Assembly (NCBI GenBank): GCA_945860915.1
Contig: CAMARR010000001.1
Location: forward strand, 124,001-188,000
Reading direction: 5' to 3'
Length of the DNA stretch: 64,000 nt
From: Candidatus Kuenenia stuttgartensis
GTDB lineage: Bacteria; Planctomycetota; GCA-002687715; CAIWVZ01
A program made the position numbers and the translations under genes. Positions 33,903-57,718 of this stretch are shown here, piece after piece. The notes under the pieces were generated by a model. It was given only the letters and a program-made list of their open reading frames with translations, did no database searches and had not been told where the DNA came from. Each line of letters begins with the position of its first letter. Positions within the stretch are counted from its first letter, which is position 1.

Positions 33903-33928
33903 GCCTCCAAAGGAATTCCTTTGGAGGC
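33903..33928. repeat. 26-bp perfect palindrome after recA
   Basis: Thirteen bases (GCCTCCAAAGGAA) are followed directly by their exact inverse complement, ten bases after the recA stop codon. With no loop bases it could form a cruciform or a protein-binding site; as RNA it would make a strong hairpin. It is not followed by a T-run, so it is unlikely to be a simple terminator by itself. Confidence 0.85.
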
Positions 33929-44009: not shown

Positions 44010-44472
44010 TCAACGACTAATCGGCGATGAATCGACTCTGGCGTTCGGGGCCCTTTTGGGCCGGAACCTCAGATCCGGGGATCGTCTGTTTCTTCACGGC
44101 CCTCTCGGCGCGGGCAAAACGACTCTCGTCCGTGGATTGATGCATGGGCTTGAGCACCCGGATTCGCGCGAAGTAGCGAGCCCTACGTTCGCAATTCATC
44201 ATCGTTACGACGGTGGGCGGTTGTCAGTCGATCACCTCGACCTCTACCGTCTGACTGCCCCCGTGGACTTGGCGGCTGAGGGGTTGGATACCGTGATCGA
44301 CGATCCAAGCTCAGTCGTCGTCATCGAATGGCCGGAGCGTCTTCAAATCGGCAGCCTTTCTCCAACAATCTCGATCCACCTGACCCTGCTCGGCGAGGGC
44401 TCCCGTGGAATGCGATTGACTGGCCGCGATGGGCTCGAATCCATCCGCCAATCCACAAGTGTGCTTCGATGA
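43996..44472 (+). CDS. tsaE: tRNA threonylcarbamoyladenosine biosynthesis ATPase TsaE
   Basis: ATPase that works with TsaB and TsaD to make t6A37 in tRNA. Walker A GPLGAGKTT starts at residue 35. SPTFAIHHRY and VDHLDLYRL are the conserved downstream blocks, and VVVIEWPERL the Walker B-region strand. 158 residues, typical. ATG 43996 lies 14 nt inside thiL; its TGA overlaps the sigma-factor ATG. Confidence 0.92.
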   Translation: MFTFDQRLIGDESTLAFGALLGRNLRSGDRLFLHGPLGAGKTTLVRGLMHGLEHPDSREVASPTFAIHHRYDGGRLSVDHLDLYRLTAPVDLAAEGLDTVIDDPSSVVVIEWPERLQIGSLSPTISIHLTLLGEGSRGMRLTGRDGLESIRQSTSVLR

Positions 44473-45071
44473 ACCAATCCCATGATGCCGACGTTAAGGA
44501 GGGTAGCGGCGGCCTCACCGATGAGGACCTCATGCTTCGGTCGGCAAACGACGACGTCGCTGCGTTCGAGGCTCTTGTGGGGCGTTATCGAGGCACCCTA
44601 GTGACTTATTTTGCGTGGGTTTCGGGGGATCGCCACCTCGCGGAAGACGGCGCCCAAGAGGTGCTCGTCAAGTTGTGGTCAGTCAGGGCGCGTTATCGGC
44701 CCAGTTCTCGCTTTCGAGCATTTCTCATGACAATGGCTCGTAATCATTGGATCGATCGCGTTCGCTACCAAGTGCGCCGCCCGGACCTAGCGCCCGAGGC
44801 GGCCGAGTTGTTGGCGGATCAGATGTCGGGCGGATTCGGTGATCCGGTCGAATCGGCGAAGAACTCGGAGCGCCTCCGCGTCCTTGCGCGAGCCGTCAGC
44901 GTGTTAAGCGAAGAGCATCGTGAGACGTTCATTCTGTCTTGTGTCGAAGGATGGTCTCACGCCGACGTTGCGAGCTCACTTGGGGTGCCCGAGGGAACCG
45001 TCAAGTCACGGCTGCATCACGTCCTGCGGCGACTCAGAGTGCTTTTGGGAAGCCCGGAGGCCCTGCCATGA
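44469..45071 (+). CDS. ECF-type RNA polymerase sigma factor
   Basis: Group 4 sigma factor of 200 residues. Region 2 spans about residues 35-105 (FEALVGRYRGTLVTYFAWVSGD..., SRFRAFLMTMARNHWIDRVR). Region 4 is at about 145-195 (LSEEHRETFILSCVEGWSHADVASSLGVPEGTVKSRLHHVLRRLR). It lacks an extended C-terminus. It overlaps tsaE upstream and the small membrane gene downstream, each as ATGA, so its synthesis is coupled to housekeeping genes. Target promoters unknown. Confidence 0.92.
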   Translation: MNQSHDADVKEGSGGLTDEDLMLRSANDDVAAFEALVGRYRGTLVTYFAWVSGDRHLAEDGAQEVLVKLWSVRARYRPSSRFRAFLMTMARNHWIDRVRYQVRRPDLAPEAAELLADQMSGGFGDPVESAKNSERLRVLARAVSVLSEEHRETFILSCVEGWSHADVASSLGVPEGTVKSRLHHVLRRLRVLLGSPEALP

Positions 45072-45343
45072 GGGACGACGAGTTCTCGCCGGACGAGATC
45101 CTCCATTTAGCGAAGGGGCTCCGCGTAGCGCCTTCCGCTGAGTTCTCGAAACGAGTCATGGAGAGGGTTTCTGTCGAACCTCGCCCTATTTGGACCTCGA
45201 TAGGGAGAATGGCGGCTGTCTACGCGGGCGTTGCGGCAAGCGTTTTGATCTGGGTCCTTCTCTTTGGGCGCCCAGGATCGCTTCCCACGCGCCCACCGCC
45301 GGCGACGGCTGAAGCGCCGTTCATTACTCCTTCAGGACGCTGA
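45068..45343 (+). CDS. small single-pass membrane protein, probable minimal anti-sigma partner
   Basis: A 91-residue protein coupled to the sigma factor by a 4-nt overlap. Residues 1-50 are charged and probably cytoplasmic (SPDEILHLAKGLRVAPSAEFSKRVMERV). One TM helix lies at about 53-72 (MAAVYAGVAASVLIWVLLFG), followed by a short Pro-rich tail. There is no HxxxCxxC zinc motif, and it is shorter than known anti-sigma domains, so the anti-sigma role rests on position and topology. Confidence 0.72.
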   Translation: MRDDEFSPDEILHLAKGLRVAPSAEFSKRVMERVSVEPRPIWTSIGRMAAVYAGVAASVLIWVLLFGRPGSLPTRPPPATAEAPFITPSGR

Positions 45344-45480
45344 CGGGCAACGGGCTGCACCAATTCGGGCAATCATGGCGTCTGGACTAGGTGACCACAT
45401 TGCGCGGAAGCGTGACTCATTTAGCCTTAAACACTTATGCTGTAAAGACTTAAGGGGATCTGCCTGCCGCCTTGGCCTTC

Positions 45481-45508
45481 GCCAGTCTAGACTGGCACGG
45501 TTCATGCT
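45481..45508 (+). promoter_or_regulatory. candidate sigma-54 promoter with overlapping palindrome
   Basis: TGGCACGGTTCATGCT at 45493-45508 has GG (45494-45495) and GC (45506-45507) exactly ten bases apart and differs from the TGGCAC-N5-TTGC(A/T) consensus in one position of the -12 element. The perfect palindrome GCCAGTCTAGACTGGC (45481-45496) overlaps the -24 element. Transcription would begin near 45519, leaving a ~14-nt leader that contains the AAGGAGA ribosome site. Confidence 0.55.
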
Positions 45509-45532
45509 TACTTCCATTCAAGGAGATCTGCC

Positions 45533-45724
45533 ATGAAGGTAACTCTTGAGAATGCAGGCACGGACCGCGGCAAGCGACTCTACAAGGTGATTCGGAACGG
45601 GTTCGTCCTGTTCACCGGCACATTGGATGAGGTCAAGCGCTTTTTGGCAGTTCGCGTCGAGAAGATCGACACTCGTAAGGCCGCAGAAGCGGCACTGCTC
45701 GAAGTCGCCCGACGTCCACGTTGA
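45533..45724 (+). CDS. 63-residue protein of unknown function
   Basis: A small basic cytoplasmic protein with no signal or TM segment. AAGGAG seven to eight bases before ATG 45533 is the strongest Shine-Dalgarno site I noted in this part of the window, supporting real translation. The sequence suggests a beta-beta-alpha start (MKVTLENAG, RLYKVIRNGFVLFTGTLDEVKRFLAV) and an Ala-rich C-terminal helix. I do not recognise the family. The 189-nt gap upstream contains an interrupted inverted repeat (CCTTAA...TTAAGG) and the sigma-54-like promoter. The next gene's ATG follows its stop by 26 nt. Confidence 0.7.
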   Translation: MKVTLENAGTDRGKRLYKVIRNGFVLFTGTLDEVKRFLAVRVEKIDTRKAAEAALLEVARRPR

Positions 45725-45750
45725 AGTCGGGTGGTCTCGCTAGGTCTAGA

Positions 45751-46983
45751 ATGACCTTTGTGAGAACGCCTTTCTTGTGTCTGCTGATTGCTCTGGCTCT
45801 TCACGGGCAGACAGCCACTGCACCATCAAAGGTCCGCGAAGCTCGGACCTTCTTTGAGGAGCGGTTAAGCCAGCGTTCCACACTCATCGTCCGAGCGCGT
45901 TTCCGCAAAGACGAATCTCTAGGTCCACTTCAGGTCACCTATTTCACGGTAACCAAGACGATTCGCGGAGCACCTACCGATTCGGTCGGGGTAATCGGCA
46001 TTGGTGATGTTGCAATGGTCAGTCGCGACGTCGAGAAGATCCTTTTCTTGAAGCGAGAGGGCAATGGATTCTTCTACTCGCTTGTCGAAGCGACCGAATT
46101 ATCTGCCTATGCGGTCGAGACCGAAGCCTGCATTGCTTCATGGTGCCATGTCGCAAACCTGAACGAGCCTGTCGAGCGTCGTCAAGCTTGGCGGCGCGGG
46201 ATCTTTGAAGGTCTCAAGTCCCCGAGCATGTTCGCTCGTCGCCTTGCCTCGCGCGAGGCAGTCCAGCTCATGCGTGTCGCGCCATCCTGGTTGCACGGCT
46301 CGGATGTGCCATCCCTTCGCAATGCGGTTGCAGGACTGCCAACTCAGGATCGTGACCCGATCCTTGATCTCATCGGGCGCCTTGAGGCTGCGAATCTGGA
46401 ATCGTATGTCGGACTAGAAGATGGAATCCCAAAGGGCGCTCTCCGCGACGAGTTCTTGAAGGGAATCATCGCGCTAACTTCCGAGCAGGATTCTGCGAAG
46501 CGCGCAGCCATCCTCGACGCTCTCTCTGAGGGATTTGCGCGAAAGGCTGATCCTCTCATTCTTCGGGCATTGGATGATCGGATTGGTTCAGTACGCACCG
46601 TCGCTCGTCGATTGGTGATCGAGCGCGATCTTGTCGACGCAACGCCCATCCTATCTAAGCGGATGGGATCTGAAGTGCTCGAAGAGTCCGAGATGATCCA
46701 AGCGATTGAATGCTTGGGATGGCTTGGTGACGACAGCGTTCCCAGCGTGCTTAAGGGCCTGACGCAATCGGAATCCGTATCTCTGTCCGCGTTGACTGCC
46801 TTGGGGCGCATCGGCTCGCCCTCTGCCGTGAATGTTCTGTCGATGCTACGACGGAAGGCCGCTGAGAATCCAGGCGCGTTCTCCGCAGCATTCATAGTTC
46901 GATTGGGTGAAGTCATGGCACCAAATTTCCGGGGATCAGAGCTCGAGCGCCGTCCTAAGGCGCGAATTGCTCCGCGAAATTAA
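45751..46983 (+). CDS. secreted HEAT-repeat protein, function unknown
   Basis: A 410-residue exported protein: MTFVRTPFLCLLIALALHGQTA is a signal peptide. Residues ~25-130 are a beta-rich domain that may bind partners (GPLQVTYFTVTKTIRGAPTDS). From ~140 on, helical HEAT-type repeats dominate, e.g. RIGSVRTVARRLVIERDL and LGRIGSPSAVNVLSMLRRK. ATG 45751 is preferred to an in-frame TTG at 45721. It is convergent with the Dus gene; the 97-nt gap between them shows no clear terminator. Confidence 0.77.
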   Translation: MTFVRTPFLCLLIALALHGQTATAPSKVREARTFFEERLSQRSTLIVRARFRKDESLGPLQVTYFTVTKTIRGAPTDSVGVIGIGDVAMVSRDVEKILFLKREGNGFFYSLVEATELSAYAVETEACIASWCHVANLNEPVERRQAWRRGIFEGLKSPSMFARRLASREAVQLMRVAPSWLHGSDVPSLRNAVAGLPTQDRDPILDLIGRLEAANLESYVGLEDGIPKGALRDEFLKGIIALTSEQDSAKRAAILDALSEGFARKADPLILRALDDRIGSVRTVARRLVIERDLVDATPILSKRMGSEVLEESEMIQAIECLGWLGDDSVPSVLKGLTQSESVSLSALTALGRIGSPSAVNVLSMLRRKAAENPGAFSAAFIVRLGEVMAPNFRGSELERRPKARIAPRN

Positions 46984-55664: not shown

Positions 55665-56339
55665 GTGACCGATTCTGCGCTCCCTCCTTGCTCGACGCCC
55701 GTTCGCCCGGGAAAGGTGCTCGCCCTCGGGAGGACCTACCGAGCCCACGCCATCGAGCTCGGGAACTCGCCGCCACCGGAGCCACTCGTGTTCAACAAGT
55801 TGCCCGACACGATTGTCCCGTCAGGAAGCAGGGTCACAATCCCGACGGACGCCGCAGGTGTGTTGGACCACGAAGCGGAACTCGCTGTCGTGATCGGTGC
55901 GACCGCGTGGAGGCTTGGCCCAGGCGACGCGCGAGCACACATTGCTGGCTATACGATCTGCAATGACCTCACGATGCGGGCCGTGCAGAAAGTCGCGAAG
56001 GAGAACGGTTGGCCGTGGCTCCGCGCGAAGAACTTTCCAGGATCCTGCCCAATCGGTCCGACCGTGACACCGGTGTCTGCTGTTCCGGATCCGGGCGACC
56101 TCGTCATAACTTGCCGTGTCAACGGTGACCTTCGACAGGAGGCGAACACCCGGGATCTTTCCTGGACCGTGTTTGAGTTGGTGGAGTGGCTTTCACACCG
56201 CTGGGTTCTTTACCCGGGTGACGTGATATCTACCGGGACACCGGCTGGGGTTGGCACACTTCGTGCTGGCGATACCTGTGCGATCAGCATACGCGGCCCA
56301 TCTGTGGACCTCGGCACCCTGATCACGGAGTTCGCATGA
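55665..56339 (+). CDS. fumarylacetoacetate hydrolase family protein
   Basis: Single-domain FAH-fold hydrolase (224 residues), of the type that opens acylpyruvates or isomerises/decarboxylates catechol-cleavage products. KVLALGRTYRAHAIELG starts the fold. Metal ligands are in LDHEAELAVVIG, and GYTICNDLTMRAVQ, WLRAKNFPGSCPIGP and DVISTGTPAGVG are the family blocks. The start is GTG at 55665, with CTGGAG about 8 nt upstream. Its stop overlaps the next start (ATGA). Substrate cannot be set from sequence; no pathway partners are adjacent. Confidence 0.87.
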   Translation: MTDSALPPCSTPVRPGKVLALGRTYRAHAIELGNSPPPEPLVFNKLPDTIVPSGSRVTIPTDAAGVLDHEAELAVVIGATAWRLGPGDARAHIAGYTICNDLTMRAVQKVAKENGWPWLRAKNFPGSCPIGPTVTPVSAVPDPGDLVITCRVNGDLRQEANTRDLSWTVFELVEWLSHRWVLYPGDVISTGTPAGVGTLRAGDTCAISIRGPSVDLGTLITEFA

Positions 56340-57718
56340 CCCTTCGAACCCTCGCTGCCTGCCTGATCATGGTCCTCGTCGCGTCGGCGCAAACGGCTTT
56401 ACAGCGCTTTGCCCGAGCCGAGGCCGCGGGCGATGTCGCTGGGATGCGCAGAGAGGCCGATGCAGCAACTCTTGAGTCCCCGAGTGATCCGGAGTCGTGG
56501 CGAGCGCTCGCTCGCACACTCGAGGCCCAAGCGTTGGGCGACATTAAACGGGGCCGATTCGCATTCGTTTCGGCGCTCCGCTTGGATGCTTGCGAGGCCT
56601 TCGCGAAGGCAGCAACCCTCACCGTGTCGCCGATCGCCGACCTCTTCGCATCGGCGAAGGCAGCGCTTCTCGCTGGAGACGCGAGCCGGGGACTAGCCGT
56701 CCTTGCGCCGTGCCTAGAAAAGCCCACATCGGAGATCGCCGTCTTGGGAGCGAAACTAGAGCTCTTGAAGGGCGATGGCGCAGCAGCTCTTCGATTGCTG
56801 GTCCGCGTGCCATCAGACTCGTCGACGTGGGGAACACTCTCGGAAGTTGCGGTCCTACTCGGCGACCGCGACTTGGCTGCGAGTGCCATGGTGAGGGCGT
56901 GTCAGCTTGGTGATGGTGAGACCATATCGGCCGTGTTCGGTCCGTTAACGCGTTCATGGAGAGACGGTGGAGATCCCGGATGGCGGTCACTAATTGATCG
57001 AGTGGCCAAGGAAGTCTCGACCTCTCCTTTCATCGCTTGGTACCAAGGTGACGCCGCATATCGCGAGACGCGAGCAGCTGACGCTATTGTAGGATTCACC
57101 AAGTACTCAACTGCGTTTCCGAATGATCCCCTGGCTTGGCAGTGTCTTGCATTGGCATTGCCACTTGAGCGTAGGTTCGCAGAGGCGCAGGAAGCTCTCG
57201 ACAAGGCGATCGACCTTGGCACACCCCCTGAAGCGGCACTCGACGCACGCCGTCGCATGGCCACCGCAGCCTATGGAGCTAAGGACTACACGCTTGCCTG
57301 TGCAATCTTGACCGTCATTGTCGGTGAGTCAGACGACCCCACGGATTGGCTGAATCTTGGAGTGCTTCACCTTGACGTGGGGAACATCAACAAGGCTAGA
57401 GCCGCGTACGATCATGTCGCGCAGGATGTTGGGGCAACCGCCTCAATTCGGGGGAAAGCGATGAATTTCCTTGCGCTGTTGTTGGACGGCGAGGGTGACA
57501 AAGCTGGCTCTGAGGCGTTGCTTCGGGCTTCAATCGAACTCTCTGATGACACGGATGCCCGTGAGAACCTCGCTAACTTGTTGGTCGACACGAAAAGGTA
57601 CGCTGAGGCAATACCCCTTCTGGAGAGGCTGGTTCGAGATGATCCGGCGCGAATCCGGTCGATCTACCACCTCGCAAGGGCGCGGCACCCTCAGCTGATT
57701 CTGCCCGCGGGGAATTGA
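56336..57718 (+). CDS. secreted TPR-repeat protein
   Basis: A 460-residue exported protein with signal peptide MTLRTLAACLIMVLVASAQT. Almost the whole length is TPR-type helix pairs, for example DPLAWQCLALALPLERRFAEAQEALDKAIDLG and PTDWLNLGVLHLDVGNINKARAAYDHV. It probably scaffolds a periplasmic assembly. Coupled to the FAH gene by ATGA and followed after 58 nt by the esterase-like gene. Confidence 0.78.
   Translation: MTLRTLAACLIMVLVASAQTALQRFARAEAAGDVAGMRREADAATLESPSDPESWRALARTLEAQALGDIKRGRFAFVSALRLDACEAFAKAATLTVSPIADLFASAKAALLAGDASRGLAVLAPCLEKPTSEIAVLGAKLELLKGDGAAALRLLVRVPSDSSTWGTLSEVAVLLGDRDLAASAMVRACQLGDGETISAVFGPLTRSWRDGGDPGWRSLIDRVAKEVSTSPFIAWYQGDAAYRETRAADAIVGFTKYSTAFPNDPLAWQCLALALPLERRFAEAQEALDKAIDLGTPPEAALDARRRMATAAYGAKDYTLACAILTVIVGESDDPTDWLNLGVLHLDVGNINKARAAYDHVAQDVGATASIRGKAMNFLALLLDGEGDKAGSEALLRASIELSDDTDARENLANLLVDTKRYAEAIPLLERLVRDDPARIRSIYHLARARHPQLILPAGN

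Follow-up and report, generated by a model that had tools for sequence, protein, structure and literature searches.

A very probable sigma-54 promoter conserved ahead of an unnamed small-protein gene and its HEAT-repeat neighbour in Planctomycetota

A short planctomycete gene encoding a 63-residue protein is preceded by a close match to the -24/-12 elements of sigma-54 promoters, and a perfect palindrome runs into the first of these elements. This raises the question of whether the gene is truly under sigma-54 control, and whether the palindrome takes any part in it. The locus lies in the window, by which we mean the whole 64,000-nucleotide stretch of DNA that was analysed. It comes from genome G000, a planctomycete assembly of 2.37 Mb in 23 contigs that is 86.85% complete. 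An earlier note on this DNA had proposed a sigma-54-type promoter, a regulator acting through the palindrome, and an orphan gene as their target. Here, we weigh these proposals against the host genome and the relatives of the gene. The features of the locus are collected in Table 1.

Table 1. Features at and around the small-protein locus (positions in the window)
Feature	Position	Strand	Basis or remark
ECF sigma factor gene	44469-45071	+	Pfam Sigma70_r2 and r4_2
91-residue probable ECF partner	45068-45343	+	Hydrophobic stretch (by eye)
Inverted repeat CCTTAA-N19-TTAAGG	45425-45455	.	Upstream of promoter; not found at other loci
16-bp perfect palindrome GCCAGTCTAGACTGGC	45481-45496	.	Shares TGGC with -24 element
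Predicted -24/-12 (sigma-54) promoter TGGCACGGTTCATGCT	45493-45508	+	Consensus match, GG-N10-GC, ortholog sites, shuffle p 0.002
AAGGAG, ribosome-binding-like	45520-45525	+	Ahead of 63-codon ORF
63-residue protein gene, unnamed Planctomycetota family	45533-45724	+	ATG at 45533, 63 codons
HEAT-repeat protein gene	45751-46983	+	PF13646 (HEAT_2) 32.6 bits, cut-off 27.7

The -24/-12 site and the sigma-54 machinery of its host

The GG (45494-45495) and the GC (45506-45507) of the site are separated by ten bases, so that the exact spacing claimed earlier is borne out. The same holds for the near-complete match to the -24/-12 elements: TGGCACGGTTCATGCT agrees at 11 of 12 positions with the sigma-54 consensus TGGCACG-N4-TTGCW, the scoring standard used throughout, and the sole mismatch falls on the first T of TTGC, where the window has an A (ATGC). 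The shuffle p in Table 1 is the floor attainable with 500 shuffles.

The promoter motif alone is no more frequent than chance in this genome. The strict pattern TGGCACGNNNNNTGCW has 3 matches genome-wide versus 7 in a reversed control, and the remaining two matches sit within longer ORFs. A looser pattern, TGGCNYGNNNNTTGCN, which does not cover the window's own ATGC site, yields 25 matches against a control count of 15. An ORF of at least 150 codons, on either strand, covers 21 of these matches, and a genome-wide sigma-54 regulon called by this pattern was rejected on these counts. What lifts the site beyond chance is its location and conservation, not the motif itself.

The machinery that such a promoter needs is present. 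A genome search located rpoN, whose absence the earlier note had named as speaking against its proposal, at C1:422133-422606 of G000 (E 1.8e-56). The gene was found in 29 of the 31 genomes searched, G000 included, and the two genomes without a match are 76-77% complete. The sigma-54 activator domain has 14 matches in G000, seven of them strong (E < 1e-65). Sequences were inspected for six of these seven (the remaining one being L034): L030, L031, L033 and L035 carry the motif GAFTGA, and L032 and L036 carry GSFTGA.

Other signals around the gene are few. A search of 45300-45800 for a sigma-70-like promoter found none, which carries little weight because shuffled sequences yield just 0.2, and the folding of 45440-45540 into a leader hairpin is not better than that of shuffles (z 0.98). 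The inverted repeat upstream of the promoter (Table 1) is a possible activator site. When 32 upstream regions were compared, reduced to 30 by removing two near-copies, no common dyad or word rose above shuffles.

Sigma-54-like sites were also seen elsewhere. In the window, TGGCACACTTCGTGCT (56252-56267) matches 10 of 12 positions and lies 84 nt ahead of an ORF of 460 codons (56336-57718). TGGCCTGGTTCTTGC (L098, G000:C7:54199-54213) lies 69 nt ahead of the gene for activator L031 and overlaps the end of the preceding 509-codon ORF; it may place an activator under sigma-54 control. TGGCCCGGAAATTGC (L104, G000:C9:27483-27497) lies 39 nt ahead of a 149-codon gene, whose product we take to resemble a PTS IIA protein, and is also covered by a 156-codon ORF in another frame.

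The palindrome over the -24 element

The palindrome is as first described, perfect over 16 bp and sharing TGGC (45493-45496) with the -24 element. This sets the locus apart from standard sigma-54 promoters, and from its two congeners, which have no such palindrome. Inverted repeats that overlap promoters can serve as repressor sites, and here, too, a perfect palindrome lies on the -24 element, although it is neither conserved nor present in more than one copy. If it were an operator, a dimeric repressor bound to it would hide the -24 element and block the sigma-54 polymerase. We consider this unlikely. In its favour, none of 300 flank shuffles matches the palindrome, and two of the 11 other orthologs carry inverted repeats at the same place, which is slightly more than nothing. 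At G004, GCCACGG-N6-CCGTGGC ends its right arm in the -24 element, and 1% of flank shuffles equal it; at G009, a weaker repeat has 5-base arms and is equalled by 9% of shuffles. However, these repeats differ from the window palindrome and from each other in sequence and spacing (that of G004 has a 6-base spacer), and the remaining nine orthologs show no inverted repeat there rarer than in shuffles.

The earlier note had further suggested that a regulator bound to the palindrome would compete with or position the polymerase, and had pointed to copies elsewhere in the genome as a check. This suggestion gains no support: GCCAGTCTAGACTGGC occurs once in the whole of G000 and once in the window even with a tolerance of up to 3 mismatches, and it was not found at the ortholog loci of the congeners G001 and G002. 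Nor are such palindromes rare, as perfect ones of at least 16 bp number 5 in the window against a shuffle mean of 1.9 (maximum 5 in 30 shuffles). The longest of the five, GCCTCCAAAGGAATTCCTTTGGAGGC at 33903-33928, spans 26 bp and is not followed by a T-run. We therefore rejected the palindrome as a conserved operator, and it is probably a chance or species-specific feature. Neither the promoter motif nor the palindrome convinces alone, because the former is outnumbered in the control and palindromes of that length are not rare.

The small protein and its family

The earlier note had the length of the protein right, but its label of orphan is wrong because the protein belongs to a family. Orthologs are present in all 12 genomes of the order that were examined (the same 12 make up the whole class sample), and family members in 39 of 392 sampled Planctomycetota genomes; a broader profile, A3, retrieves 40 of the 392, namely the same 39 and one marginal. 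Further family searches around G106 and G023 returned the same 17 genomes and no additional members. A match in an actinomycete (L082, one of 9 loci in a genome scan) was discarded as likely due to chance, with 24 residues matched. A more distant paralog, here called paralog B, whose start resembles MDxRFECxFEGK, is encoded in 11 of the 12 order genomes (all but G001).

The family is without a name in the collections searched: seven members had no Pfam match and six no NCBIfam match above cut-off. Two structure models of the small protein have mean confidences of 75 and 85, the fold predicted at a mean pLDDT of 85 consisting of three strands and a helix, and a PDB fold search with both models returned no relative with E <= 0.001.

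Conservation of the site across the family

For all 52 family loci matched in the search that retrieved the 39 genomes (12 order orthologs, 11 paralogs B and 29 loci outside the order), the best GG-N10-GC site was scored in up to 180 nt of upstream sequence. With a cut of 9, fixed after initial scores had been seen, the site is present in 10 of 12 order orthologs, in none of the 11 paralogs B from the same genomes, and in 17 of the 29 loci outside the order, the other 12 falling below; among the window's ORFs, 3 of 61 reach this score, the small gene being one. The two orthologs below the cut score 8 (shuffle p 0.15-0.17). Shuffle p values under 0.05 were obtained for 10/12 orthologs, 0/11 paralogs and 15/29 loci outside the order. 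Orthologs and paralogs B differ with a Fisher p of 7e-5, a value to be read with the relatedness of the loci in mind, as they are not independent. On a protein tree with 19 of 48 inner branches well supported, the label of scoring at least 9 can be explained with 7 changes, whereas shuffled labels need 17.7 on average and in none of 500 shuffles as few. Sigma-54 control of the small gene is thus very probable, because a similar promoter precedes the same gene in relatives. The original call of a sigma-54-type promoter is supported by these ortholog sites, by their absence at paralogs, and by the presence of rpoN and activators.

Could the GG-N10-GC arrangement nevertheless be a coincidence, with the gene transcribed by other means, such as read-through from the ECF gene or the ECF factor itself? 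This would fit the lack of genome-wide enrichment of the strict pattern, and the finding that eight of the 12 order loci (G000, G001, G002, G003, G007, G008, G010 and G011) have an ECF homolog ahead of the small gene. In the window, the ECF gene begins by overlapping the stop of a preceding gene, taken by eye as tsaE. The ECF sigma/partner pair described earlier just upstream holds for the sigma factor, which Pfam recognises; its 91-residue neighbour has no Pfam match and is a probable partner, with homologs in the two congeners only among the loci searched, by a search that a short, fast-changing protein can escape. G005 has no ECF homolog within its 1.5 kb flank. G004, G006 and G009 have none upstream either, in flanks of up to about 4 kb (L076, L079, L081), yet their sites score 11-12. 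Together with the distribution of sites scoring at least 9 over orthologs, paralogs and loci outside the order, this makes a chance site improbable in our judgement.

That the family's sites were simply inherited within a wider upstream block, with no selection on the promoter itself, is very improbable. The genomes do share ancestry, and near-copies among them (e.g. G189/G253 and G211/G071) do not count as independent cases, but in ungapped comparisons of the three congeners the 100 bases preceding the site are identical at 24, 25 and 44 positions, versus 9, 9 and 10 of 12 in the site itself (sites chosen by score, a bias in favour of agreement), and the paralogs of the same genomes have no site scoring 9.

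Several family branches have features of their own. All five loci of family f15 have a TTTGC-ending site 80-99 nt upstream, three of which score just 7 (shuffle p 0.25-0.54). Four loci of family f59 (L066, L068, L071 and L073) have long predicted leaders of 71-103 nt and, by eye, a common CGATAGG stretch shortly after the promoter. In family f2 (L019, L117 and L119), a weak ECF sigma homolog (E 3e-4 to 9e-4) lies downstream of paralogs B, and no sigma-54 site there scores 9. A second common neighbour, presumably a protein with prenyltransferase/squalene-oxidase-like repeats as judged by eye, lies upstream of the small gene at 12 of the 52 loci, all outside the order (e.g. L057, L058 and L069); the pieces seen, cut by locus ends, are 289-472 residues long.

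The HEAT-repeat partner and a model of expression

The next gene begins 26 bp past the stop of the small gene and encodes a HEAT-repeat protein. BLAST clustering, which involves no profile, found a downstream HEAT-type protein common to 25 loci, and 18 of these served to build a partner profile. It matches at 11 of 12 order orthologs, 0 of 11 paralogs B and 24 of 29 other loci; loci used for building match by construction (9 of the 11 orthologs and 9 of the 24 others), so that two and fifteen of these matches lie outside the building set. One clustered locus, G067, is missed by the profile, and the twelfth order ortholog, G002, is without the partner, with 122 bp of contig remaining. The partner follows at 26 of the 27 loci that score at least 9, G002 being the one without. 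Conversely, 26 of the 35 partner-bearing loci score at least 9 and the other nine score 5-8; outside the order, 7 of 12 loci scoring below 9 carry it.

Site, gene and partner are conserved together. The HEAT gene, conserved as the downstream neighbour, is probably transcribed together with the small gene. By eye, its protein has a signal-peptide-like N-terminus, which suggests export.

We consider it highly likely that the site is a real sigma-54 promoter, one that would be opened by an activator and would serve the small gene and the HEAT gene as one unit. As read from the sequence, sigma-54 RNA polymerase would sit at the -24/-12 site in a closed state until one of the AAA+ activators of G000, an enhancer-binding protein bound upstream, hydrolyses ATP and thereby opens the promoter. 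Transcription would start near 45519, judging from the spacing, and the short leader (about 14 bases) would include the ribosome-binding site; the predicted leaders of the congeners, at 13-15 nt, likewise retain it. A single transcript would then carry the 63-residue gene followed by the HEAT gene.

A possible sigma-54-controlled module in Planctomycetota

Studholme and Dixon reportedly computed sigma-54 promoters in Pirellula in 2004. With the -24/-12 promoters that enhancer-binding proteins activate, the predicted promoter described here shares the GG-N10-GC arrangement and near-consensus elements, and G000 likewise has rpoN as well as activators in which GAFTGA or GSFTGA was read. In the same phylum, computed sigma-54 regulons have been described in PMC12316311, with gene groups that include chaperones, MscS channels, csrA, ZraR-like regulators and universal stress proteins; the passages of that paper considered here do not list the small-protein family among these groups. 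PMC2754498 refers to the rpoN of Rhodopirellula baltica, and the 2004 study by Studholme and Dixon is among its citations. Searches among open-licence papers in PubMed Central turned up no title on the small-protein family or the two-gene module.

Tentatively, and with a little less than even confidence, we suggest that the two genes constitute an unnamed sigma-54-controlled module of Planctomycetota, in which the small protein and an exported HEAT protein would form an envelope pair made in response to a signal sensed by the activator. In a bolder form of this idea, the small protein may act in the cytoplasm to regulate or escort the HEAT protein that is exported. With the conservation described above, a motif seen in a single sequence becomes a regulon call that can be tested in Planctomycetota, and an unnamed small-protein family gains a partner gene and a candidate regulator.
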